DNA of 42,673 nt from a virus, in IMG/VR virus record IMGVR_UViG_3300023284_000229, positions 1 to 42,673 of that record; one strand, given 5' to 3'. The notes beneath the pieces are model-generated. The model was given only the letters and a program-made list of their open reading frames with translations. It did not search any database and had not been told where the DNA came from. Within the stretch, counting starts at the first letter, position 1, and the number at the start of each line of letters is the position of its first letter. Below, in pieces: positions 6,636 through 42,673 of this stretch. The position numbers and the translations under genes were made by a program.

Positions 6636-7715
6636 TTAAAAATTATTTCCAAAGAATATTGCTGGTTCTGCTGATACTGCAGTATGTTCTACCACTAATT
6701 TAGGGTCTTGTGTTGTTCCTGAACCCCCTTGATCTGCCATAAAAGCTCCAACAAAACTAGAACCCGCAGGGGAAGGAGATGTATCATTTACATCAAGTAC
6801 CATTCTTAAACCAATTTTAGTAATTCCACCTTTATCTATAGTAGCTTCTCCAGTAGCGTTTAAAGTATAATCATTAAAAGCACTTGTTGACCAGGATGCC
6901 ACCGTTTTATCTGGAGCAAGCGCAGTCGTACCAAAATCGTTAAAATCATAGTCACTTGTCACTATATCGCTATTGGAAGCTGGATTGGAGGTCACTACTC
7001 TAGCTGAATCAGAAAGAGTATCATTTTTAGCATTGCCCTCTAAACTATAAACTGCTGAATCAATCGTATCAGTTCCTAATGAACTTGTATCAAAGAGGGT
7101 AATTATCCTTTCAATAATAAAGTCAGTACCTTGTTTATCATGCTCTGCACTTACAGCAGTATTAGTTGGAGTAGCAGTAGCACCAGTTCCTGCATCATGG
7201 ACTGTTGCATATACTGTGCCACTATTCCCAACGCTACCATCAACAGGACTATTTGTACCTGCAGCAGGTCTAAAAGTTGTAGTGGTATTTCCAGTTTTTC
7301 CTCTAGTTACGTTCGTATTCTCTTTTCCCACTAAACTAATAGTATGAGCTAAGTCTTGTCTAGTGGCTTTGGCTAGATCTTCTATATATTTATATTCATG
7401 TAAAATACCATTCTTATTAGTCCATTCACGAAGTATTGTGCCATTTGGATCACTTACTAGAATAGGAGGGTTATAAATTAAGAATCTCTCTATCTCAACA
7501 CTTCCATCTTTACCAAAACCTAATTGTTTATTCTTTCTCCACGCCTTAGCAAAAACTTCTATGCCTCCCTCAATCGCTTTAACATTTTGAATATCAATCT
7601 TTACTCCGTATTTTTGACTTATATATTCACCACTAAAATCTATCTTGGCAATTTCCTTGCCTTTAATAGTAGCTTTCTGTTTGGGAGTTTTATTTTTGAT
7701 TAAATCTTTAATCAT
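6636..7715 (-). CDS. Virion surface protein with DNRLRE-like C-terminal domain
   Basis: 359 aa. Residues 1-130 form a charged alpha/beta N-terminal domain. The rest is beta-rich and resembles DNRLRE-type domains: an aromatic/aliphatic strand followed by FDTSSLGTDTIDSAVYSL, and a closing strand TQDPKLVVEHT. Such domains are known as carbohydrate- or surface-binding appendages. The ATG is at 7715, just after the stop region of the 362-aa fibre gene (7717), and the gene is six bases from the adaptor gene. It is probably an exposed tail or head fibre component. No enzymatic motif is visible. Confidence 0.6.
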   Translation of the reverse strand: MIKDLIKNKTPKQKATIKGKEIAKIDFSGEYISQKYGVKIDIQNVKAIEGGIEVFAKAWRKNKQLGFGKDGSVEIERFLIYNPPILVSDPNGTILREWTNKNGILHEYKYIEDLAKATRQDLAHTISLVGKENTNVTRGKTGNTTTTFRPAAGTNSPVDGSVGNSGTVYATVHDAGTGATATPTNTAVSAEHDKQGTDFIIERIITLFDTSSLGTDTIDSAVYSLEGNAKNDTLSDSARVVTSNPASNSDIVTSDYDFNDFGTTALAPDKTVASWSTSAFNDYTLNATGEATIDKGGITKIGLRMVLDVNDTSPSPAGSSFVGAFMADQGGSGTTQDPKLVVEHTAVSAEPAIFFGNNF

Positions 7716-7716
7716 C

Positions 7717-8805
7717 TTAACTAAAATCTAAAATACTACCTCCGAAATAGTCTGTTCCATCAAAATAGAATGAAATGATATCCGTACCTGTGGTAGCTGT
7801 GGTTGTTAATGTTGGTGCTGTACCTCCTGAAAATTCAACATTAGCTGGGAATGTCGCTGTTCGTGAACCCACTGAGTCCTGAACCAATTTAAGCGTAAAG
7901 TTACCAGGCTTAGCTGGGTCTGTGAAAGTAAATGTCTCGTTAAAAGCACCAAACTGGAAGTTAAACTTGTTACCAAGTCCCCAGTCAATCGTTGTTGTTC
8001 CGTCTCCTGTAGCTGTCTGTGCTGTGAAACCTATTGAGTTAGCACCAGCATCAAGTTCTCCTCCAAGAACAGGGGTTGCGTCACTTGAAAGTTCAGTTAC
8101 AAGTGGTTGTCCACTAGCTCTTGTATATTTAGTACAAATCCAATTACCAGAACCTAAAGATATAAATTCTGCTCTATCATCTGCAGCGGTAGTAATATTT
8201 GCAGCTGTAGGAAGAATGAGAGAAGTAGCATTTTGAGTCAATATTAAAATACCAACGAATTTCACTACTCGTTTTGTTCCAGCTGCAACTGTTCCTAATC
8301 CCGTAATTGTTGTAGTACCTGTAATAAATACAAAGTTACCTGCGACAGCTCCAATATCAGTTGTAGTTGCAGAGGCTACATCACCTGCTTTAGTTTCATT
8401 AATTGCAAATGAATTAGTATCAAAAGTTCCTCCCAATTGAGGTGTTGTATCTTCTACAATATTATTAAGTGTTCCAGGTGCTACTGCTGAAGTTGATACT
8501 ATCTGAAAGTTTGTACCATCATTAACTACCTCAATAACTGAACCAGCTTCAATATCTCCTGTAATCGTGTCTACATCGTGTTCTTTTTTAAGTGTCCTAG
8601 CTCCTAGACCATTTACATTCAGTGAAGAAGCACCTGTATTGGCTGTATTTGCGCTAAAGGTAAATGATTGACCTGTTACGTATGCTGTTACTGCAGGGTC
8701 TAATGTTATAGCGTAAGCATCACTAGCTTCTGCATCTGCTGCAAAAGTATGTAATGCGTTTTGAACTGATACTACACTTGCTCCTCCTGGTTGTGAAAAT
8801 CCCAT
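7717..8805 (-). CDS. Fibre/appendage protein sharing a module with the glycine-rich fibre
   Basis: 362 aa, beta-rich, Thr/Asn/Gly-rich and cysteine-poor. Residues 20-106 (SDAYAITLDPAV, NTANTGASSLNVNGLGARTL, EHDVDTITGDIEAG) are clearly paralogous to residues 293-382 of the 612-aa fibre. The rest consists of short strand repeats with TTTITGLGTVAAGT and a C-terminal stretch GTDIISFYFDGTDYFGG, typical of fibre knobs. It lies three bases from the 134-aa protein gene in the structural operon. A receptor or surface-binding role is inferred from the module. Confidence 0.7.
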   Translation of the reverse strand: MGFSQPGGASVVSVQNALHTFAADAEASDAYAITLDPAVTAYVTGQSFTFSANTANTGASSLNVNGLGARTLKKEHDVDTITGDIEAGSVIEVVNDGTNFQIVSTSAVAPGTLNNIVEDTTPQLGGTFDTNSFAINETKAGDVASATTTDIGAVAGNFVFITGTTTITGLGTVAAGTKRVVKFVGILILTQNATSLILPTAANITTAADDRAEFISLGSGNWICTKYTRASGQPLVTELSSDATPVLGGELDAGANSIGFTAQTATGDGTTTIDWGLGNKFNFQFGAFNETFTFTDPAKPGNFTLKLVQDSVGSRTATFPANVEFSGGTAPTLTTTATTGTDIISFYFDGTDYFGGSILDFS

Positions 8806-12454: not shown

Positions 12455-12478
12455 AGAACCACTCTGTTGAGTGGCTCT
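12455..12478 (-). terminator. Rho-independent terminator before the capsid genes
   Basis: Minus-strand hairpin AGAGCCACTC-AACA-GAGTGGTTCT: 10 bp with one G.U pair, followed by TTTT and ATATT. It ends or attenuates transcripts arriving from the portal side just before the scaffold gene. Confidence 0.75.
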
Positions 12479-12486
12479 GGGGAGGG

Positions 12487-12560
12487 GTTCAATTGGGATA
12501 CACCTTGCGGTGAATTGAACACCTCTCAAGAGGCACCCAATTTGTATATCCCATACAAAT
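12487..12560 (-). ncRNA. Structured RNA upstream of capsid operon, possible loop-bulge pseudoknot
   Basis: Three minus-strand hairpins in order. ATTTGTAT/ATACAAAT (12540-12560) has loop GGGAT. CCTC/GAGG (12522-12533) follows. GTTCAATTCACC-GCAA-GGTG...AATTGAAC (12487-12520) is capped by a GNRA tetraloop and carries the 6-nt bulge TATCCC. The first loop plus its next base (GGGATA) is complementary to the bulge, giving a possible 6-bp tertiary pairing. The set is followed by the terminator at 12455, so it could regulate termination. Confidence 0.6.
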
Positions 12561-20469: not shown

Positions 20470-20573
20470 GCTTGTGCCCTGAGTTAGTGGGGCAAGGATT
20501 GACTAAAAGTAACACCACCGCTAAATGAAGATTACTTCTGTCACCTTTCACCCCACCAACTCAAAGTACAAGC
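20470..20573 (-). ncRNA. Structured RNA element with 13-bp closing helix
   Basis: Minus-strand helices GCTTGT/ACAAGC (6 bp) and TGAGTTGGTGGGG/CCCCACTAACTCA (13 bp with one G.U; the same position is A.C on the plus strand), enclosing AAGTAA/TTACTT. Its 5' arm overlaps the last codons and stop of the HNH gene. It separates the HNH gene from the zinc-finger gene and could be a 3' end, processing site or regulator. Confidence 0.6.
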
Positions 20574-21100: not shown

Positions 21101-21262
21101 TTATTTGTATCTAAAAACAATATCTTTAGTGAGAGGACATTTATACCACTCAACATATGTTGTCCAAAAAATACCTAGTAAACGATATGCCTTAACTTCC
21201 AACATTTGTTCAAAATATCTATTTTGTATCTGTTCAAATGCTGTTATTCTTATTGTTTTCAT
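21101..21262 (-). CDS. Hypothetical protein, 53 aa
   Basis: ATG at 21262 overlaps the TGA of the 95-aa gene. Product MKTIRITAFEQIQNRYFEQM continues to LLGIFWTTYVEWYKC, an amphipathic to weakly hydrophobic stretch. Many phage proteins with 'AFEQIQNRYFEQ' patterns are short and uncharacterised. Start context AGAGCGTATG is shared with the HNH gene. Confidence 0.55.
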   Translation of the reverse strand: MKTIRITAFEQIQNRYFEQMLEVKAYRLLGIFWTTYVEWYKCPLTKDIVFRYK

Positions 21263-21546
21263 ACGCTCTTGTTAAGGATTTTACTTTTAATGTCTTCTAT
21301 GATGTTATCTTTTATTCTTTCAACATTACAGTCATGGTCTTTGTAGCACTCTTTTTCATCACAGGTTTTCATCCCCTCCAACATCTCTATTACACCCTTG
21401 ATGATGTTATCTTCTCTTTGGTTTATATGTTCTTTTATTTCTTCATTTTTTGATACCATTCCTCCTTCATGAAAAAGTTGAAAAGGAAAACTGTTCTCAA
21501 ACTCCTTGTTTCCTTGTTCTCTTATTGATGTGAGTGTTTTAGTCAT
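21259..21546 (-). CDS. Hypothetical protein, 95 aa
   Basis: Acidic and helical: TLTSIREQGNKEFENSFPF, then REDNIIKGVIEMLEGMKTC and a Cys/His-containing CDEKECYKDHDCNVE that may bind a metal. ATGA overlap with the next gene. No known family. Confidence 0.6.
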   Translation of the reverse strand: MTKTLTSIREQGNKEFENSFPFQLFHEGGMVSKNEEIKEHINQREDNIIKGVIEMLEGMKTCDEKECYKDHDCNVERIKDNIIEDIKSKILNKSV

Positions 21547-22119: not shown

Positions 22120-22602
22120 TTATTTAAAAAGCGTTGATAAGTACTCCTCTATTGACTTGCCTTTCCTTAATGTAGGCATTAGTTCGTCCATTTTAACTGT
22201 CCAATTCCCTCTTTTGAATCCTCCGTGAGAGTTTATAATTCTTTTTCCCCTCCACTCATTTTCTTTTGCTTCACAATAATCCCATTCACCCTCACCCTCC
22301 AATTCAATAATGTTATTTATTTTTCTAGCCCAGCAAGTTTTACACTTATAAACAGGTGTTTTTGCTGTGTCAGGCTCATAACGAATTAACTCCCAATCAT
22401 GTTCTATTTCAGAAAGTTGTTTTATATATTCTCCCCATTTTTCAACCTTCCCTACTGCACGCCATGAGGAGGGGTCTAAAAACATTGAGTCCTTTTCGGC
22501 ATCAGTCCAAGTATGTATAGGTATTTTTTCTTCTACAACATAAACACCTTTACCCCACCCTCCCTCTATAGCTTTTTCTATGTATAGTTTTGTGTATTTC
22601 AT
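22120..22602 (-). CDS. Hypothetical protein with a CxxC motif, 160 aa
   Basis: Residues 1-60 (YIEKAIEGGWGKGVYVVEE, FLDPSSWRAVGKVEKWGEY) look like a short phage alpha/beta domain. A CKTCWARK knuckle lies at about residue 90. No second pair of cysteines is close by. Function unknown. Preceded by TAACTATG without a Shine-Dalgarno sequence. Confidence 0.6.
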   Translation of the reverse strand: MKYTKLYIEKAIEGGWGKGVYVVEEKIPIHTWTDAEKDSMFLDPSSWRAVGKVEKWGEYIKQLSEIEHDWELIRYEPDTAKTPVYKCKTCWARKINNIIELEGEGEWDYCEAKENEWRGKRIINSHGGFKRGNWTVKMDELMPTLRKGKSIEEYLSTLFK

Positions 22603-22604
22603 AG

Positions 22605-22730
22605 TTATTTCTCGTCCATCTCGGACATTAGAAACACTAAAAGTCCAAGACCGCTACTTATCCCTATAATGACAATCATCCAAAAAAAGAATGTATGTTC
22701 CTTTCTAAGTTTTTTAATATCTTTTATCAT
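22605..22730 (-). CDS. Single-pass membrane peptide, 41 aa
   Basis: ATG at 22730, TAA at 22605. Basic N-terminus (MIKDIKKLRKEHTF), hydrophobic segment (FFWMIVIIGISSGLGLLVF) and acidic tail (SEMDEK), which fits an N-in orientation. Function unknown. Confidence 0.55.
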   Translation of the reverse strand: MIKDIKKLRKEHTFFFWMIVIIGISSGLGLLVFLMSEMDEK

Positions 22731-22732
22731 AG

Positions 22733-22918
22733 TTATTTCTTACTAAACCCACTAATAATCTCTTTTGCATTACATGGAGCTCCCCTGCTCGCTTCTATTC
22801 CTTCACGAGTGAAAACTACATAACGTCTTACTTTGATACAGTTAGGTCTGCTACATACTTGTCCCTTAAGACGTTTTTCTTTACATATTACACAACGTAA
22901 TGATGTGAATTTTTTCAT
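22733..22918 (-). CDS. Small zinc-finger protein, 61 aa
   Basis: CVICKEKRLKGQVCSRPNC at about residues 9-27 gives a four-cysteine CxxC...CxxxxC site. The rest is basic. It overlaps the NinG-like gene by four bases. NinG-like and zinc-finger genes often sit together in phage recombination regions. Confidence 0.6.
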   Translation of the reverse strand: MKKFTSLRCVICKEKRLKGQVCSRPNCIKVRRYVVFTREGIEASRGAPCNAKEIISGFSKK

Positions 22919-23304: not shown

Positions 23305-23421
23305 ACGAGTGCCAGGGTAACGAACCTTGATGATTTCTTCAATCACACTCACCACAACACCCACACCGATGAATCTTAACCTTTCAGTATAGAGACTCTG
23401 TCGAATGAAGTTGTCATGTGT

Positions 23422-23552
23422 CAGGGTAGTACCCTGATTTGAGGGAACAAACGCACTATGTGATTCTCGTTTGCGAACATGTAAATGTTACCAGTGAAAA
23501 TTTTTGAAACACCGCCACAATATCCATTCCCTCACATCAGGGTACTACCTTG
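23422..23552 (-). ncRNA. Long inverted-repeat RNA element (26-nt arms, 131 nt)
   Basis: Arms 23422-23447 and 23527-23552 pair at 24 of 26 positions. Inside lie short helices CAAACG/CGTTTG and AACAT/ATGTT. Each arm also holds the near-palindrome GGGTAGTACCC, so an alternative fold with two local hairpins is possible. It begins one base after the stop of the 129-aa gene and precedes the NinG-like gene. The mismatches do not favour the minus strand here, unlike in the other elements. Confidence 0.6.
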
Positions 23553-23553
23553 A

Positions 23554-26555: not shown

Positions 26556-27365
26556 TTATTTAGCGTAATCTAATCTTATAAATGGTATTGCTCCACCAGG
26601 AATCATCTGTTGTGGTAAATTTCCCGACCATTTCTTAGCGTATTCCATTTCAACCTCAAGTCTCTTCAATTCTAGGAATGCTGTACCCTGTCGTAGAGCT
26701 TGTCCCTGAAGACGTGTCTGCTCTGCTTGAGCTTTGTACTTCTCGATCTCTTGCTGTTGCTCGAACTGAACCCTTGCAAGATCATTCTCTGCCTTGAGTG
26801 CGTTCTGTTCTGCGGTTACTTTCTGCTCAATAGCTGAATCAAATGCCGTTGAGAACTTGAAATCTGTGAGAGACAAGTTTGTTACGACGATATTATTGTT
26901 ACTTAAACGTGTTTTAAGAGCATCTAGTATATCAGTCTTAACTTGCTCACGCTTAGTAATAAGCTCTTCTGCTGTATACTTTGCTGTTGCTGCCTTTACT
27001 TCATCCTGAATAGCTGGGTCTATAACAATCCGTTGGTAATCTGTCTGAAACTCTGTGTATATCTCACCTACTTTCATAGGGTTGATATTAAAGTTTAGAG
27101 CGATTGTTGTTGATACAATCTGAAGGTCTTTCGATGAAGCCTGTGCAGCTACTTCGATTTTCTGTGTTCGTACACTGAATTTTACAAGGTCTTCAATGAA
27201 TGGATTCTTGTAGTGGAGTCCTTCTCCTAGTACTCTATCTACTGCTCCTAATCTTAGGACTACCTTCTTATCTCCTGAATCAATTATTGTAAAAGGTTTA
27301 AGAATCAGTGCCAACGCTATCATCACTACTATCCCTGTCAGTGTTATTATTTGTTTTGTTGTCAT
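26556..27365 (-). CDS. SPFH/prohibitin-like membrane protein
   Basis: 269 aa. One N-terminal membrane segment (residues 6-25, IITLTGIVVMIALALIL) is followed by a prohibitin-type SPFH domain (GDKKVVLRLGAVDRVLGEGL; LHYKNPFIEDLVKFSVRTQ; VSTTIALNFNINP; ATAKYTAEELITKREQV) and a coiled-coil end (EIEKYKAQAEQTRLQGQAL). Family members (prohibitin, HflK/HflC, stomatin) form ring or cage scaffolds in membranes and, in the HflKC case, wrap and control the AAA+ protease FtsH. Here an AAA+ ATPase gene lies 0.4 kb downstream. Very unusual cargo for a phage. Confidence 0.9.
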   Translation of the reverse strand: MTTKQIITLTGIVVMIALALILKPFTIIDSGDKKVVLRLGAVDRVLGEGLHYKNPFIEDLVKFSVRTQKIEVAAQASSKDLQIVSTTIALNFNINPMKVGEIYTEFQTDYQRIVIDPAIQDEVKAATAKYTAEELITKREQVKTDILDALKTRLSNNNIVVTNLSLTDFKFSTAFDSAIEQKVTAEQNALKAENDLARVQFEQQQEIEKYKAQAEQTRLQGQALRQGTAFLELKRLEVEMEYAKKWSGNLPQQMIPGGAIPFIRLDYAK

Positions 27366-27790: not shown

Positions 27791-28216
27791 TTAGAATCCT
27801 AAATCTGGGTCTATTTCTGATAATGGTAATGGTTTTGCTAATGGTGCTTTCTTAGGTACTGTACTTTGTGCATCGTCATCACTTTCGGTCATGAGATTAA
27901 AAAGCTGTACAAGATTATATCTTCTGAAGTAGGTAATAGCTGAACCTAGTTTTTGTGGGTCAAGATTTTCTGGTAAAGGTATAGCACTGTACCTATTTTC
28001 TCCTGTTTCAACATCGAATATCTCTGTCATTACTTCCTTGTTAAGAGTTCTATGTACAACAAGTAGCTGTCTTTTCTCTAATTCTGGTAGTAGTTTATCC
28101 CACAGTTCATCTAGTGGTACATATTTATAGTTATACCCTTGTGCTGTCTTGGTAAACTTTAAGTGTAGAGATTGTATCTCAAACAGTTTTTTTGTTAGTT
28201 TTTCATTATCTGTCAT
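27791..28216 (-). CDS. erf: ERF-family single-strand annealing protein
   Basis: 141 aa, shorter than many ERF proteins (about 200). The N-terminal KLFEIQSLHLKFTKTAQGYN and YKYVPLDELWDKLLPEL match the ERF layout, and GSAITYFRRYNLVQLFNL at residues 91-108 is the family signature ('GSAiTYaRRYaL..llgl'). The tail is polar. It promotes annealing of single-stranded DNA during phage recombination or genome circularisation. Confidence 0.85.
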   Translation of the reverse strand: MTDNEKLTKKLFEIQSLHLKFTKTAQGYNYKYVPLDELWDKLLPELEKRQLLVVHRTLNKEVMTEIFDVETGENRYSAIPLPENLDPQKLGSAITYFRRYNLVQLFNLMTESDDDAQSTVPKKAPLAKPLPLSEIDPDLGF

Positions 28217-30009: not shown

Positions 30010-30018
30010 ATAGTTTTT

Positions 30019-30095
30019 ACTCTCCCCCAACCTCCGCATTATAAGTAGAGGTTCGGAGGTGTTAAGTGTCCCCGACTCGAAAGTCAGGGGAGAGT
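30019..30095 (-). ncRNA. Leader element A: masks the ribosome site of the membrane-protein gene
   Basis: Minus-strand ACTCTCCCC (30095-30087) can pair with GGGGAGAGT (30027-30019), which contains the Shine-Dalgarno sequence. The same CCCC can instead pair with local GGGG in a hairpin capped by TTTCGA (30070-30090). A further helix CGGAGGT-type arm (30030-30036/30054-30060, 7 bp) lies between. Two mutually exclusive folds are the layout of a translational switch. Confidence 0.6.
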
Positions 30096-30118
30096 ATATA
30101 ATGCTTATAAATGTTCTT

Positions 30119-30206
30119 GATGATTCTCTGGGTGGTAAGAACGAAGAGCTGACTAACATCGTACGCTGTGCAGACTTACAACACTCTTACCACTCAAAGA
30201 ACCATC
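30119..30206 (-). ncRNA. Leader element B: long interrupted hairpin
   Basis: Arms 30119-30140 and 30185-30206 form 9 bp (TCTTACCAC), an internal loop, 4 bp, and then 4 bp more across one position that is A.C on the plus strand and G.U on the minus strand. The 44-nt apical part is less clear. Part of the same leader as elements A and C. Confidence 0.6.
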
Positions 30207-30287
30207 GTATCCATCCTTTTAAGGAGAGAATAATTACTATATATATGTAGTACTAATTTTCTCTCCCTTTGAATGGTTTCGTTATAG

Positions 30288-30383
30288 TTCGACACTGTAC
30301 CCTCAGCCGAAGCTGAGGTGCGGTCCGCCCTGCTCGTTTTAGGAGAGGTTCCTCAATCCTTAGATCGAGGGTTCAGTGTCGAA
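30288..30383 (-). ncRNA. Leader element C: multibranch fold with UUCG tetraloop
   Basis: A 10-bp closing helix (TTCGACACTG/CAGTGTCGAA) encloses two hairpins. CCTCAGC-TTCG-GCTGAGG on the minus strand has the classic C(UUCG)G tetraloop. CCTCGATC-TAAG-GATTGAGG has 8 bp with one G.U that would be A.C on the plus strand. Both details indicate a minus-strand RNA. It lies about 45 nt downstream of the promoter at 30436. Confidence 0.7.
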
Positions 30384-30464: not shown

Positions 30465-30617
30465 CTTATTATCTATCTTTTCTGGGGATAACTGCTTTAA
30501 ACGTTTATATATAGCGTTACCAGTAACATTGAATAACTTACCTATACGCCTAAAACTAAGCCCTGTGTCCCGTAACTTCTTAATCTTTTTGAGGTCTGAT
30601 TTGCTTAACTTAGTCAT
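30456..30617 (-). CDS. Small helix-turn-helix regulator, 53 aa, probably leaderless
   Basis: MTKLSKSDLKKIKKLRDTGL is followed by SFRRIGKLFNVTGNAIYKRL, a resolvase-like helix-turn-helix (residues 14-41). Its ATG lies seven bases after a -10 box (30624-30629), so the mRNA should start at or next to the AUG. The -35 segment AGTTGACTTA is repeated in the next promoter at the end of this gene, which suggests it controls both. Confidence 0.7.
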   Translation of the reverse strand: MTKLSKSDLKKIKKLRDTGLSFRRIGKLFNVTGNAIYKRLKQLSPEKIDNKLT

Positions 30618-30651: not shown

Positions 30652-32004
30652 CTAAAATAATTTTGATTGTCTTTCTTTTTGTGCCTGTTTAATCCTTGCC
30701 TCTATAATTGGTATATACTCTTCCTCCCTTTCAATCAAGACAAAGTCTCTGTCTGTGTTGATACAAGCAACTCCTGTAGTTCCACTTCCTGCAAATGGAT
30801 CAAGGACTATTCCGCCTGTAGGAGTCTTAGTGAGTGTAGAAAGATATTCCATGAGAGCGAGAGGTTTTACTGTGGGGTGGTTGTTGCCTGTATTTATTTC
30901 TATTCTTTCAAAGTCTGGTTTTTCACATTTACATGGATTGTGGTCTAATTGTAATTTGTTACATATTTTACAACGATATCTACCAAAACGATGCTCTGTA
31001 GATTTTTTCTCCTCCAACCATTCACACCCTGCATTACGTTCTTTCTTTGAGGCTTTAGCTGTATAGAAGAATCGAGATGCTCCGCCTTTGTCGTTATGTA
31101 ATGTCCCTGTTTCTTTTCCAATACCACCTCCAAATATATTGTCTTTACTTGAATAATCTTTACCATTCAAATTCTTCCTACCACTTCTTGCGGCACCACT
31201 TACTTTCAATTCACCACTCTGTTCATCTAACATCTTCCCTGCTTCGTCATCTAGGATTATGTTGGCTGGAAAACGACCTTGAGTATGTTCTTTGTACGGT
31301 GTTTTAACTTTAAACTTTCCCAGAGAATTAGTATTATTTGAATTTTGTAATTCATTATCTCTACCATATTCTGTTCTATCACCATCATGTTTTACTATCC
31401 TCCCACCATCTATATTCAACCCAGCCACACCATGCTTCAGAGCATTGTTAGCGTATGTTCCGTCATTAGGTTTCATTGCTACCAAGATAGGTTCATAGGC
31501 TGGTTTTAGTCCATGTGATTTCCAGCCATTCCATAGTTTTGCTTCGGGGGTTGAGGGTTCTGTTATAACGCCACTTCCCCCTGGTTTAAATCCAGCATTG
31601 TGGGTATTATTTGTATTATTTTTTATTGCATTTGGTCTTTGGTCTTTTTTATTTATTTTAATAACTTCTCTCTCGTGTCCCTTATCCAGCTGTTTACTTA
31701 TGTCAGTAGCTTTAGGAAACCCTGACCCATAAAGCCACATGATTGTGTCCTTTAAAATAAACCCTGCATCCTCTACGTTCACCGCCATACGGTGCTGTGT
31801 GCGACTTCCTGCGAAAATAAGAGCTGTTCCTCCTGGCTTTAGTACTCTTAATGCTTCTTTCCATAACTCTACACTTGGCACATCGTAGTCCCATTTTTTA
31901 CCCATAAAAGATAGACCATAGGGAGGATCGGTTATAATAGTATCAACAGAGTTTTCCTCCATTTTCTTCATTTCTTCTAAACTTTCTCCTTGTATTATTT
32001 TCAT
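30652..32004 (-). CDS. DNA methyltransferase, beta class (DPPY) with internal zinc ribbon
   Basis: 450 aa. Motif IV DPPYG at residues 26-30 precedes motif I-like DPFAGSGTTG at about 402-411, the order of beta-class N4-cytosine/N6-adenine enzymes. The target-recognition region between them is long and contains a four-cysteine knuckle, RCKICNKLQLDHNPCKCEK. HPTVKPLALMEYL precedes the C-terminal block, as in this family. It probably protects phage DNA from host restriction. No restriction-enzyme partner is nearby. Confidence 0.92.
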   Translation of the reverse strand: MKIIQGESLEEMKKMEENSVDTIITDPPYGLSFMGKKWDYDVPSVELWKEALRVLKPGGTALIFAGSRTQHRMAVNVEDAGFILKDTIMWLYGSGFPKATDISKQLDKGHEREVIKINKKDQRPNAIKNNTNNTHNAGFKPGGSGVITEPSTPEAKLWNGWKSHGLKPAYEPILVAMKPNDGTYANNALKHGVAGLNIDGGRIVKHDGDRTEYGRDNELQNSNNTNSLGKFKVKTPYKEHTQGRFPANIILDDEAGKMLDEQSGELKVSGAARSGRKNLNGKDYSSKDNIFGGGIGKETGTLHNDKGGASRFFYTAKASKKERNAGCEWLEEKKSTEHRFGRYRCKICNKLQLDHNPCKCEKPDFERIEINTGNNHPTVKPLALMEYLSTLTKTPTGGIVLDPFAGSGTTGVACINTDRDFVLIEREEEYIPIIEARIKQAQKERQSKLF

Positions 32005-32006
32005 AT

Positions 32007-32420
32007 TTATTTTGAATTACAAACCATACAACTAGCCTTTCCACAAAAGAATCCGTTCTCACAGGGATTTGGTATCTCTATTTCTGTATCTGCACTTATC
32101 CTATCCATATATTCTCCAAATTCAATCTTACTTAATTCTGTAGTACTTGTAGGTATTTTAATTTCTTTTCCCATTACTGTTATGAACTTAGGGGGTAGAA
32201 ATGTTCTACGGAAGTACTCATGTAGACTATTCGAGTCATCTCCTGTTTCACTTGAGATTATTCCTAGATAGAACCAATAGAAACGATTTTGATTATTTGT
32301 TCTTTTAATCTTTGGTATTTCACATACTAAATATTTACCTACGTTTTTCTGTAGATACATTCTTTGATTAAATGTGAAGTCTACAATTCCGTTTTCTTTT
32401 ATTTTTGTGTGAAGTTTCAT
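32007..32420 (-). CDS. NinB-like recombination protein
   Basis: 137 aa. RTNNQNRFYWFYLGIISSET, then LHEYFRRTFLPPKFI, STTELSKIEFGEYMDRISA and a final IPNPCENGFF follow the layout of NinB-like phage proteins ('R.N.QNR.YW......L..T..F..Y..RI....'). These bind single-stranded DNA and act with recombinases. The C-terminus has an extra cysteine cluster (CGKASCMVC). Confidence 0.7.
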   Translation of the reverse strand: MKLHTKIKENGIVDFTFNQRMYLQKNVGKYLVCEIPKIKRTNNQNRFYWFYLGIISSETGDDSNSLHEYFRRTFLPPKFITVMGKEIKIPTSTTELSKIEFGEYMDRISADTEIEIPNPCENGFFCGKASCMVCNSK

Positions 32421-34281: not shown

Positions 34282-34409
34282 TTTAATAAAATACTAATAA
34301 GCTTTGCTATTGATGTTTCTTTTTTTACTGCAAGGGATTTGAGTTTCTTCCAGTCCTCCCTATAGACCCTTAACATCATAGTTTCTTTTCTCTTCTTATC
34401 TTTTATCAT
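34278..34409 (-). CDS. Ribbon-helix-helix regulator, 43 aa, probably leaderless
   Basis: First gene of the early operon. MIKDKKRKETMMLRVYREDW followed by KKLKSLAVKKETSIAKLIS has the short strand plus two helices of Arc/CopG-type repressors. Its ATG is about eight bases downstream of a perfect -10 box, so transcription should begin at the start codon. Likely an early repressor that controls its own promoter. Confidence 0.65.
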   Translation of the reverse strand: MIKDKKRKETMMLRVYREDWKKLKSLAVKKETSIAKLISILLK

Positions 34410-34416
34410 GTATATA

Positions 34417-34445
34417 AGTATACACTAAATCCTTCCCAATGTCAA
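34417..34445 (-). promoter_or_regulatory. Early promoter (consensus sigma70-like)
   Basis: Minus strand TTGACA (34445-34440), 17-nt spacer, TATACT (34422-34417). This is the best promoter match in the window. It drives the early operon starting with the RHH gene at 34409; the mRNA start would coincide with the AUG. Confidence 0.85.
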
Positions 34446-34633
34446 CTGTTTATTACTTCATTATTAACATAGTATCTCCCACCCGCTCACTCAAGGATAG
34501 TCTTCTTTACTGTGTGTCTTACCTGTAGTGTCCCAGCCTGTATCAGTGGCTTATGTTCCTTGTGAACAATCTCTTCTGATACTAAAAGGAGTTTAAGTAA
34601 TGTAAAGGGTTCTAAATAATAAAGAGAAAAATC
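34446..34633 (-). other. Non-coding stretch upstream of the early promoter
   Basis: No gene seen. It holds a possible 6-bp closing pair AGTATC/GATACT (34471-34476/34578-34583) and a small hairpin TGTTC/GAACA (34554-34568). It may be another weaker module of the RNA region or house operators for the early promoter. Confidence 0.4.
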
Positions 34634-34774
34634 TTGATAACTGAGTAGAGGAGACAAGAAATCAACATTACTTGCCTTTCTTGTGGCACCTTAGCTCCAT
34701 TTGGAGTCGTAAGAGTACTTGCCCCTTACTTGGTCGGGTATTTGACCATCTCCACTCCTCTACTCAATTATCAA
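34634..34774 (-). ncRNA. Structured RNA D: 20-bp closing helix with internal hairpins
   Basis: The arms 34634-34653 and 34755-34774 pair over 20 positions. The single imperfect pair is G.U on the minus strand and C.A on the plus strand. Inside are ACAAGAAA/TTTCTTGT (8 bp, 34654-34684), CTCC/GGAG with a 4-nt loop (34695-34706) and GGTC/GACC (34732-34747). The multibranch shape resembles a compact folded RNA of about 141 nt. Confidence 0.75.
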
Positions 34775-34808
34775 AATGCTTTCCCCTCTATCCCGTCGGT
34801 CGAGGTGG

Positions 34809-34854
34809 CTTACTTTTAGCTGGCACATTATTTCTCCCGCCAGTCCCTAGTAAG
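34809..34854 (-). ncRNA. Structured RNA E: two-part hairpin
   Basis: CTTACT/AGTAAG (34809-34814/34849-34854) encloses CTGGC/GCCAG (34820-34824/34839-34843). Smaller than its neighbours and probably a sub-helix of a larger fold with elements D and F. Confidence 0.5.
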
Positions 34855-34880
34855 AAGGTTACTTTGGATATCAGATAAAC

Positions 34881-34952
34881 TGATTAGTGGATTATGAGGG
34901 TTACCGCAGTGCCAATCTTTCGATTGCTTACTCCCCCACAATCCACTAATCA
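34881..34952 (-). ncRNA. Structured RNA F: 13-bp helix capped by a GAAA tetraloop
   Basis: TGATTAGTGGATT/AATCCACTAATCA is a perfect 13-bp helix. At its tip CAATC-GAAA-GATTG (minus strand) carries a GNRA tetraloop, a loop type often used for tertiary contacts. Short GGG/CCC and AGT/ACT pairs lie between. It follows the zinc-ribbon gene by nine bases. Confidence 0.7.
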
Positions 34953-34961
34953 AACTACCTA

Positions 34962-35096
34962 TTATTTACCTTTACGCCACTTTCTATAGTTTTCGTTACT
35001 TTCTTCTGCTTTTTTTAATCGACATTCCACACAATAAATACTTGGTGGACTTTTTTCATGTTCGTTATTTTTACATTCTGCACATTTTGATGTCAT
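34962..35096 (-). CDS. Small zinc-ribbon protein inside the RNA region, 44 aa
   Basis: ATG at 35096, TAA at 34962. MTSKCAECKNNEHEKSPPSI is followed by YCVECRLKKAEESNEN, giving two CxxC pairs spaced 14 residues apart, then a basic end. It is the only credible gene in the 34.4-36.3 kb RNA interval. It might bind the neighbouring RNAs, which is speculation from position. Confidence 0.65.
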   Translation of the reverse strand: MTSKCAECKNNEHEKSPPSIYCVECRLKKAEESNENYRKWRKGK

Positions 35097-35118
35097 ACTT
35101 TGTATATTAGTTACTCAC

Positions 35119-35342
35119 TAAATACTGGAGGCAAGGATTTCCATTTTCACCTTGCATGACATTATCTTTGCTCTTCATGTCTAGGGTATTTACAAAGTTC
35201 TCCCTCGAGAAAAAACCACCCCTAGCGTCTACTTTTCTATACCCCCTACTTTCCTACCTGCTCTATGATTAGGGGCTTCCCACTCCATAGATTTTCTCAG
35301 TTTCGTAAGATATAGATGTCTATTCCGCCACTCCAGTATTTA
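35119..35342 (-). ncRNA. Structured RNA G: large multibranch element
   Basis: A perfect 12-bp helix TAAATACTGGAG/CTCCAGTATTTA closes 200 nt containing at least six local helices: GCAAGG/CCTTGC, GACAT/ATGTC, CTAGGG/CCCTAG enclosing TTCTC/GAGAA, CCCCTA/TAGGGG and ATAGA/TCTAT. No reading frame of note lies inside. Such density in AT-rich DNA is far above what I would expect by chance. Confidence 0.7.
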
Positions 35343-35362
35343 AAGAACGACTTATAATAGAT

Positions 35363-35503
35363 GTGCTATTGTGGCAGTATCTTCATTACTTACTAGTATG
35401 CGAGTAGCTTTTTACCTATAAAACAATTGTATTTTCTATTAGGCGATATTTCCTTCCGAGAAATATCATTTTGTAATGAAGCGCATACCACCACAGCAAT
35501 ACA
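35363..35503 (-). ncRNA. Structured RNA H: long interrupted helix
   Basis: TTCATTAC/GTAATGAA (8 bp) is extended outward by GTAT/ATAC, TGG/CCA, TATTG/CAATA and GTG/CAC with small internal loops (about 23 pairs). The apical part contains the 8-bp hairpin GATATTTC/GAAATATC (35445-35467). It lies between elements G and I. Confidence 0.65.
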
Positions 35504-35510
35504 CCTATAA

Positions 35511-35600
35511 ACAAAAATCCCCGTACAATTAAGTACAGGGTTTCGATATCCTCTGCCCGTATGAAGGGGCAAATTATACGGGGATTTTTGTTATCGAAAC
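35511..35600 (-). ncRNA. Structured RNA I: possible pseudoknot of 15 bp and 9 bp
   Basis: ACAAAAATCCCCGTA (35511-35525) pairs perfectly with 35577-35591 (15 bp). GTTTCGATA (35540-35548), which lies between those arms, pairs perfectly with 35592-35600 (9 bp), directly next to the other helix. The order A-B-A'-B' defines an H-type pseudoknot with potential coaxial stacking. A competing hairpin (GTAC/GTAC plus CCC/GGG at 35518-35539) would exclude it. A small hairpin TGCCC/GGGCA lies in the loop. Confidence 0.7.
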
Positions 35601-35614
35601 TCGTACTTACTTAC

Positions 35615-35643
35615 AGTATACCACCTATCACAGAACAATGCAA
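35615..35643 (-). promoter_or_regulatory. Possible extended -10 promoter for RNAs I-H-G
   Basis: Minus strand TGGTATACT gives an extended -10 (TGn plus TATACT at 35620-35615). The -35 position has only TTGCAT. Start would be near 35608, eight bases before element I. Confidence 0.4.
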
Positions 35644-35693
35644 AGGAGTTTATCCACAACCATTTCGTTGGTATCAACACAATGGTCTAAAAG

Positions 35694-35727
35694 AAAAAGG
35701 CATCGTCCTAACGGTCGACACCTTTTT
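35694..35727 (-). terminator. Terminator hairpin 3 of the RNA region
   Basis: Minus strand AAAAAGG...CCTTTTT with an inner TCGACC/GGACGA-type helix and loop, followed by CTTTTAG. The A- and T-rich ends make it usable in both directions. Confidence 0.6.
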
Positions 35728-35733
35728 CAAATA

Positions 35734-35795
35734 TTTAATGTTCACATCTCATACCTCTGCCACAGAGTATGTATGAGATGTGGCTGAATATTAAA
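35734..35795 (-). ncRNA. Structured RNA K: 12-bp plus 5-bp hairpin
   Basis: CACATCTCATAC/GTATGAGATGTG (12 bp, 35743-35754/35771-35782) stacks on CTCTG/CAGAG with a 3-nt loop, and TTTAAT/ATTAAA can close the base. It sits between two terminators, so it may belong to a separate small transcript. Confidence 0.65.
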
Positions 35796-35865
35796 CCTTT
35801 CGGTTCATAGCTCCTTTAGAAGTCTGTTTAAGAATCATCCCTGCTCAGCACGGGAACTAACTCCG

Positions 35866-35899
35866 AGGCATAGGAGATAGTGGCTTACCGACTATGCCT
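35866..35899 (-). ncRNA. Structured RNA L: small hairpin
   Basis: AGGCATAG/CTATGCCT (8 bp) closes an 18-nt loop. Next to it is the short hairpin CCCGTGCTGAGCAGGG (minus strand). Upstream part of the same short transcript as element K. Confidence 0.5.
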
Positions 35900-35920
35900 T
35901 GTGTGTTTAGTATACTAAAA

Positions 35921-35946
35921 GAAAACCACTACGTCTAGTGGTTTTC
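35921..35946 (-). terminator. Terminator hairpin 2 of the RNA region
   Basis: Perfect 11-bp hairpin GAAAACCACTA/TAGTGGTTTTC with a 4-nt loop. On the minus strand it is followed by TTTTAG after TTTTC. Confidence 0.75.
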
Positions 35947-36035
35947 CCCAAAGCAACTATCTATGACTATTTAGATAATGCGTCCCACGTCGTTAATCGT
36001 AGGACTATATAATTGTACAACAAATATTACAAAAA

Positions 36036-36057
36036 AGAACCCTGTTAGATGGGTTCT
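36036..36057 (-). terminator. Late-operon terminator
   Basis: Minus strand AGAACCC-ATCTAACA-GGGTTCT followed by six T in a row once the stem's own final T is counted, then G. It lies 215 bp after the last late gene (CHAP-like, stop at 36273) and 55-75 nt after a promoter-like site, so it may end both the late mRNA and a very short RNA. Confidence 0.8.
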
Positions 36058-36117
36058 AATTTGTTCTTGTATTTAAAAAAATATTTATTAGATTGTCTTC
36101 TTTGTACAACTATATAC

Positions 36118-36146
36118 AGTATAACACAAAGATAGCCCCCTGTTAA
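36118..36146 (-). promoter_or_regulatory. Promoter-like site upstream of the late terminator
   Basis: Minus strand TTAACA (36146-36141), 17-nt spacer, TATACT (36123-36118). Start near 36111. With the terminator at 36036 it would give an RNA of about 75 nt. Confidence 0.55.
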
Positions 36147-36156
36147 GAGGACCATC
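36131..36156 (-). other. Hairpin overlapping the promoter-like site
   Basis: On the minus strand GATGGTCCTCT/AGGGGGCTATC pairs at all 11 positions, three of them G.U, with loop TAAC. On the plus strand those three would be mismatches. It is probably part of the 3' end of the late mRNA. Confidence 0.55.
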
Positions 36157-36272
36157 TTGGTTCGATTGCAATTATAGAAGGTCATTTGTACGGGACCTAC
36201 AGACGCTTTACCCAGATTAACTGAGACTAGACGTAAAACACATATTGTGGTCTACTACTTAACGGTAGCAGT

Positions 36273-36698
36273 TTAGTTATTACTTGTCAATACCTCAGAT
36301 GACCAAAATCCTATAATTCTACTATCATCCCATTGTATAAACCTTTCAGAATATTCACATTTCTTATAGTTTCCTTCTCTCACATATATACCTCCTGGCA
36401 TTATTGCCATTATAACTGCTACGTGACTTAAATCTCCATATCTCATTAAAACAAGCCCTCCTACTGTTGGTACAGAGTTGGGCTTGAATTGGTAAGCGTG
36501 TTGTCTAGGAAGTTCAAATTTAGAGTATATACGTGCTGTGGCAACACATTCACATAATACGTTGTATTCTTCTTTAACTTCTTGCTGTGGTCCTTGTACA
36601 GGCTTCAGGGGCACATTTATTACCACAGGACTGTCGTACTGTATGACTTGTTCTGGTTCTACAAATAAAAGGAGTAGAAATGAAAGCATAGACCTCAA
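36273..36698 (-). CDS. CHAP-like peptidoglycan hydrolase candidate
   Basis: 141 aa. Hydrophobic start like a signal peptide (MLSFLLLLFVEPEQ). NVLCECVATARIY supplies the candidate nucleophile Cys near residues 49-51, GDLSHVAVIMAI supplies His92, and YVREGNYKKCEYSERFI carries the Glu/Asn position. This order fits a circular CHAP/NlpC-type papain-like fold. It ends the late operon next to surface proteins and may be a virion-associated or lysis enzyme. Confidence 0.65.
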   Translation of the reverse strand: MRSMLSFLLLLFVEPEQVIQYDSPVVINVPLKPVQGPQQEVKEEYNVLCECVATARIYSKFELPRQHAYQFKPNSVPTVGGLVLMRYGDLSHVAVIMAIMPGGIYVREGNYKKCEYSERFIQWDDSRIIGFWSSEVLTSNN

Positions 36699-42195: not shown

Positions 42196-42673
42196 TTATT
42201 CGTTGATTATTTCTCTAATTTCTTCATCGGATAAATCTGCAAGTTCAGGGTCAGCTCTTAGTTGTTCAAATTCTGCTTTGCCACTACCACGATTTTCTTC
42301 TTTTCTTTGTTTTTCTATTGGGCTTGTTACAGCTGATCTTAATTCTTCTTCTTTATCCAGTCCATATTGCTTTAATTTTGAATTGATAAGGTTTTGTACA
42401 TCATCTTCATAATCATCAAGAATTAATATGAATTGTCTGTCTTGCATATCTACGTTAGCCACGTTTTTACCTAAACGTACTGCTTCTGGTTCTGACACAG
42501 CTGCTCCTGAAATGTCTTTAATAAACTGTGCTAACTGTTTACCTGTTTTGTTTTCTAATTGTGTAAATGCGTCAATCTCTGGTGAAACTTGTCCTAGTCT
42601 TCTTTGTACTTGTAAATTTCTTGTTGCGATTGGTCCAATGTTTACAGACTCTTTTAGTAATCGAATCTCTGCT
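42196..42673 (-). CDS. C-terminal part of the 671-aa coiled-coil protein (circular continuation of 1-1682)
   Basis: The frame is open to the window edge and joins the protein started at 1682 when the ends are closed. The C-terminal part is acidic and helical (DDYEDDVQNLINSKLKQYG; SDEEIREIINE). Its stop is three bases before the next gene (start 42193). The ATG at 42498 is internal and not a true start. Confidence 0.85.
   Translation of the reverse strand, partial: AEIRLLKESVNIGPIATRNLQVQRRLGQVSPEIDAFTQLENKTGKQLAQFIKDISGAAVSEPEAVRLGKNVANVDMQDRQFILILDDYEDDVQNLINSKLKQYGLDKEEELRSAVTSPIEKQRKEENRGSGKAEFEQLRADPELADLSDEEIREIINE
42530..42673. repeat. Right copy of the 144-bp terminal repeat
   Basis: Identical to 1-144. 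See the left copy: closing the circle here keeps the reading frame intact. Confidence 0.9.

Follow-up and report, generated by a model that had tools for sequence, protein, structure and literature searches.

What is made from the gene-poor interval at positions 34410-36272 of the phage record IMGVR_UViG_3300023284_000229? A preliminary description had seen large folded RNAs there, reminiscent of the giant phage RNAs GOLLD and ROOL. We analyzed the whole stretch of 42,673 nucleotides, in the following called the window, together with related phages. Along its minus strand the interval holds an array of about eight units, which measure 75-250 nt. Several of them have their own promoter and terminator, and most are closed end-to-end by a long helix (Table 1). 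We are confident of this structural description. As its best explanation we favor, at a probability of roughly 0.55, an array of about eight folded small RNAs that are partly derived from tRNAs and constitute a trait of the phage family; a decoy function, discussed below, is left aside in this estimate.

Genome, host and setting

The first 144 bases of the record are identical to its last 144 (42530-42673), which points to a circular map of 42,529 bp that is probably complete. At the record start a minus-strand gene of at least 560 aa (1-1682) is cut off; its remainder would lie beyond the 144-nt junction. Almost every gene of the 42.5-kb genome lies on the minus strand in a one-directional layout, and among the products are a large terminase, a portal protein, a Mu-gpT-type capsid protein, ERF, SPFH, NinG, an amidase and a DNA methylase. 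The array sits between the end of the late operon, whose last gene ends at 36273, and the early operon, which begins at 34409. Capsid relatives with 37-67% identity were found in IMG/VR. Because other capsid relatives come from MAGs whose labels include Falkowbacteria, Zambryskibacteria and Pacearchaeota, the host is likely to belong to the Patescibacteria, and the family probably infects these ultra-small bacteria.

Organization of the array

The starts of RNAs B to E are marked by −10 boxes or, for RNA C, by a weaker promoter-like site, and their ends by terminators or terminator-like hairpins. Units F, G, H and I and the zinc-ribbon gene have no terminators of their own and hence would need read-through of RNA E. 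All helices listed in the preliminary description were found again, and its 44-aa zinc-ribbon gene is probably real because the relative G015 contains a 57% match over 33 aa. The segment 35511-35600, however, is not the multibranched domain it was taken for; it forms a two-state hairpin/terminator, RNA E. When growing transcripts of RNA E are folded, a 5′ helix appears first (−26.8 kcal/mol at 90 nt) and later gives way to a terminal hairpin of 21 bp (−36.1 kcal/mol).

Because predicted internal terminators and promoters split the region into small units, to speak of large folded RNAs is misleading. One large ornate RNA, a new class with GOLLD- or ROOL-like behavior, would be favored by the extent and branching of the region, were it read through as a whole. 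With these internal signals, a protein gene inside, no Rfam match and no homologue of the whole region, we consider it highly improbable. Nor is this the only noncoding RNA region of the genome: a second RNA cluster (30018-30383) and three single units had been missed.

Table 1. Positions of RNA units and associated features in the window
Feature	Position	Strand	Helix	Promoter and terminator	Remarks
RNA B	36036..36112	(-)		promoter TTAACA-17-TATACT at 36146-36118, −10 box at 36123; terminator 36057-36036	
RNA C	35915..35998	(-)		weak promoter 36032-36004; terminator hairpin 35949-35918	
RNA D	35686..35904	(-)	35782-35771/35754-35743 (within RNA D)	promoter-like 35937-35909, −10 box at 35914; terminator 35728-35693	several hairpins, including 35782-35743; one GAAA tetraloop; z −6.5
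RNA E	35505..35609	(-)	35592-35572/35530-35510	promoter 35644-35615, −10 box at 35620; terminator 35540-35519	two-state hairpin/terminator; z −6.1
Unit F	35350..35512	(-)	35508-35485/35380-35357		branched, helix-closed; z −5.0
Unit G	35105..35356	(-)	35356-35331/35130-35105		helix-closed; predicted tRNA-Leu-like cloverleaf; large D-loop insertion
Zinc-ribbon gene, 44 aa	34962..35096	(-)			
Unit H	34868..34965	(-)	34965-34933/34900-34868		33-nt closing arms; internal GAAA tetraloop; z −9.0
Unit I	34621..34787	(-)	34787-34749/34659-34621		39-nt closing arms; four inner hairpins; z −8.2
Early promoter	34417..34445	(-)		TTGACA-17-TATACT	consensus type, downstream of array
Cluster 2 promoter	30464-30436	(-)		TTGACT-17-TATACT	
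Cluster 2 unit 1	30288..30383	(-)			UUCG tetraloop
Cluster 2 unit 2	30119..30206	(-)			closing helix has TTCTTTGAGTG in common with two G025 units
Cluster 2 unit 3	30018..30096	(-)			
Single unit	23421..23553	(-)			helix-closed, intergenic; z −7.0
Single long hairpin	20470..20573	(-)			end of HNH gene; z −8.0
Single closed unit	12467..12540	(-)			possible alternative T-arm-like hairpin GGTG-TTCAATT-CACC

Several smaller features accompany the two clusters. Paired TTGTACAA palindromes in inverted orientation (36006-36020 and 36102-36116) flank RNA B and adjoin promoters; they are possible repressor sites. Between RNA D and the RNA E promoter lies a hairpin-forming palindrome (35650-35687). Of this, 21 nt recur without a difference in dinD (BRO-N) from a Falkowbacteria MAG and, between genes, in a further Patescibacteria genome. 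Its plus strand codes for 21 aa with 52% identity to DinD, and the element may be a dinD relic, an operator or an antisense to dinD. Just upstream of the cluster 2 promoter, the minus strand encodes a small helix-turn-helix protein (30480-30617; weak HTH profile matches), a possible regulator of that cluster.

Reality and strand of the structures

The region contains 12 helices with a score of at least 28, whereas 60 dinucleotide shuffles gave 2.6 on average and never more than 6. Five helices score at least 36, where shuffles gave 0.1. In a sliding scan, the mean z was −2.2 in the region and −0.5 genome-wide. The z-scores of single units in Table 1 are inflated because these units were picked for structure.

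Several observations point to the minus strand as the RNA strand. G-U and A-C mismatches stand at 32:6 in the unit helices of the two clusters (our sum from the helix list); this count, like the unit z-scores, is optimistic, as helices and unit boundaries were chosen after seeing the data. Counted by rule over every helix, the ratio was 25:9 inside the region and 62:57 outside, a conservative contrast given that the outside count contains cluster 2. The minus strand fold is about 100 kcal/mol more stable than that of the plus strand. Among tetraloop hairpins, GNRA or UNCG loops account for 6 of 22 in the units of the window and its relatives; the figures are 2 of 22 for the strand opposite these units and 10 of 203 across the whole minus strand. 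TATAMT promoters that have a −35 box are nearly all minus-strand, with 14 there and one on the plus strand, and six of the TATACT type are located in or just ahead of the two RNA clusters. Long helices coincide with sigma-70-type promoters and with terminators. An unusual structured noncoding RNA of minus-strand orientation, as first described, is supported. Terminator-like sites are in excess (6 observed, 1.4 expected), whereas the 15 promoter-like sites (10 expected) are not significant by number alone.

The long inverted repeats, the paired TTGTACAA palindromes and one perfect DnaA-box word (35650-35658) might also speak for a function of the DNA itself in replication, packaging or recombination. 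The G-U bias and the tetraloops, however, are strand-specific, the units have no common ends and DnaA-box-like words are not in excess, so that we regard this as very unlikely. A replication origin was rejected on the same single perfect DnaA-box word and the lack of an excess of near matches. The idea of BoxA sites (GTTCTTTRA) was also dropped, with 4 sites against a chance mean of 1.9.

Recurrence in related phages

No homologue of the whole region was found in phages, relatives, four MAGs or 380 Patescibacteria genomes, which gave short DNA matches only, none of them useful for covariation; searches with the neighboring late gene or the zinc-ribbon gene found no new relatives. The conservation expected of such an RNA failed in relatives at the level of blastn, but the architecture recurs there and unit G has two partial homologues. 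Four closed units stand in tandem in G005 (7185-7786) and three in G015 (31721-32114); further closed units were found in G025 (21131-21367 and 22591-22806), G021 (28019-28153 and 2299-2396) and G026 (797-963). G010, G016 and G022 showed no clear arrays, and the trait is therefore common among the relatives, not universal. As a control, 28 viral contigs (285 kb, drawn by an arbitrary 16-mer) contained four helices at scores of 40-41 and none with a score of at least 42 and a loop of at least 30, of which the window has seven. The best reading is that arrays are a family trait found at differing genome places with little sequence conservation. One closing-helix motif, TTCTTTGARTG, is present in one window unit and two G025 units; a lone match elsewhere (L089) does not fold closed and was rejected as a unit. 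Common k-mers in unit interiors were not in excess. At another G015 locus (L075, 20985-21340), near-perfect long inverted repeats consist of repeated TGATACACA..TGTGTATCA words; these look like DNA-level operator sites, not RNA units.

The main rival of our reading is a cis-acting leader, with no RNA acting in trans. Here the units, as terminators, attenuators and processing sites, would shield the late operon and determine how far transcription reads through into the early one. The placement of the array between operons and its terminators agree with such a role, and the two-state RNA E fits it well. Yet branched cores and tRNA-like units exceed the needs of insulation, and arrays in relatives lie at unrelated places, some without an operon border. 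As an account of the array as a whole, we find the leader possible but doubtful.

tRNA likeness of unit G and of units in relatives

The proposal of small RNAs that are partly tRNA-derived draws on unit G and on units of the relatives. In G021, positions 28040-28130 match the Rfam tRNA model (RF00005) with 38.1 bits at a gathering threshold of 29; 26 nt stand in place of the anticodon loop and the acceptor stem continues into the closing helix. G016 has a tRNA (26826-26926) with a 29-nt insertion in the anticodon loop. The 26-29 extra nucleotides of G021 and G016 may be introns or may reflect a lost anticodon function. The T loop TTCGATT is found on a stem in two further units (G005, G021), and the G026 unit has 22 nt identical to an annotated tRNA-Leu.

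A search of 636 kb of family sequence gave 21 sites with the Leu D-arm word TGGYGGAAT. At three of these sites, in G026, G025 and unit G of the window only, the preceding 8-mer is complemented within 300 nt downstream, for which we estimate a chance expectation of about 0.1. In unit G, the tRNA-Leu D-arm motif TGGCGGAAT directly follows the closing helix, with GTAGACGC further on. A second D-arm block, GTAGACG, and a 3′ block, GSAARTCCTYRCC, are common to unit G and its counterparts in G025 and G026 (G025c, G026L); in unit G and G025c an insertion of about 90-130 nt precedes GTAGACG. The T-like stem reads GCAAGG/CCTTGC, GTAAGG/CCTTAC and GCGAGG/CCTCGC among the three phages, and two pairs, as read by eye, change on both sides. 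These comparisons comprise at most three sequences of very different lengths, as the two homologues of unit G are partial and differ in length.

The unconstrained minimum-energy fold of unit G has a 13-bp acceptor, a D stem, a 5-bp anticodon-like stem, a variable arm and, directly next to the acceptor, a T-like arm; interpreted by eye, this is the cloverleaf order of a class-II tRNA. The canonical seven-base T loop TTCRANN is absent from unit G, whose loop is TGAAAATGGAAAT, with TGGAAGT as the G025 counterpart. In the window, neither RF00005 at E≤5 matched any unit, including unit G, nor did ARAGORN find a tRNA. Run with relaxed thresholds, ARAGORN gave noise only, apart from the G016 tRNA. 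Judged by its predicted fold and D-arm sequence, unit G probably derives from a class-II (Leu-type) tRNA whose acceptor stem was extended and whose loops were enlarged. The other window units showed no tRNA sequence; in unit I, the order of arms is nonetheless similar to that of unit G. We infer that a tRNA ancestry may apply to units other than G.

The units might instead be functionless relics, left by tRNA genes in decay and by other sequences of mobile or palindromic kind. This would agree with rebuilt or lost loops and anticodon arms, with the dinD-like fragment within the region and with the little sequence conservation. Intact long helices, one-strand G-U changes and stable tetraloops imply selection on RNA, however, and make relics unlikely.

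Comparison with known RNA systems

Near GOLLD and ROOL, tRNA islands are frequent, being usual but not obligatory, and these RNAs assemble into a homo-oligomeric RNA cage. Both are phage-borne, highly structured RNAs whose function is not known, and GOLLD is a single RNA, often above 800 nt (PMC12286853). The array shares phage carriage and pronounced structure with them. In contrast, its units are predicted to be small, it has no ARAGORN tRNA island and no covariance-model match: the GOLLD and ROOL models gave no match in the region at E≤5, and Rfam none in the window at the gathering threshold. The proposed kinship to a single large RNA of this kind was hence abandoned.

Of the published architectures known from phages and CPR bacteria, the stem-loop arrays of TIGR-Tas systems (PMC12045711) come closest; they likewise consist of helix-closed RNA units in tandem, whose palindromic arms vary. 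In the window, however, no Nop-domain protein or box C/D pattern was found, and its units are branched and unequal in size. Nop-domain proteins (PF01798 or PF02371) gave no match in 27 records, where a very diverged Tas could escape, and box C/D words were not in excess, with one C..D pattern in 25 unit interiors; these words are of the snoRNA type and may differ from the TIGR motifs. On both counts a TIGR array is not supported.

Phage tRNA islands and tRNA-like RNAs (RF00005) also cluster in noncoding phage stretches. D-arm or T-arm sequence and the order of a cloverleaf are seen in unit G and the G021, G005 and G026 units, but these differ from tRNAs in an acceptor stem that runs into a long helix, in large loop insertions and in the lack of a recognizable anticodon. 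Pre-rRNA processing stalks are long helices cut by RNase III. Like the units, they close a structured core end-to-end; the unit cores are non-ribosomal and their processing is presumed.

Possible function and significance

For the folded small RNAs we propose the following course. The array's own promoters would drive transcription. Long closing helices would be processing stalks, like those of pre-rRNA, at which a host dsRNase (RNase III, for instance) cuts. Released cores might then act in trans as tRNA mimics, occupying host tRNA-handling enzymes in processing, modification or tRNA-cleaving defense. This decoy mechanism is a tentative suggestion. Still more speculative is the wider notion that Patescibacteria phages carry a new class of element, namely tandem arrays of fast-diversifying tRNA-derived RNAs in which the acceptor helix is extended and the D and anticodon arms are rebuilt. 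Once released by processing, these would be decoys against functions or defenses of the host that are directed at tRNAs.

Little is known on how phages of ultra-small bacteria act. If our reading is true, an array that keeps its architecture while the sequence turns over, and in which some units still betray their tRNA ancestry, would be a new kind of phage RNA cargo and would show how covariance-model libraries overlook RNAs when the units are near-unique. It would also provide a testable case of RNA mimicry.
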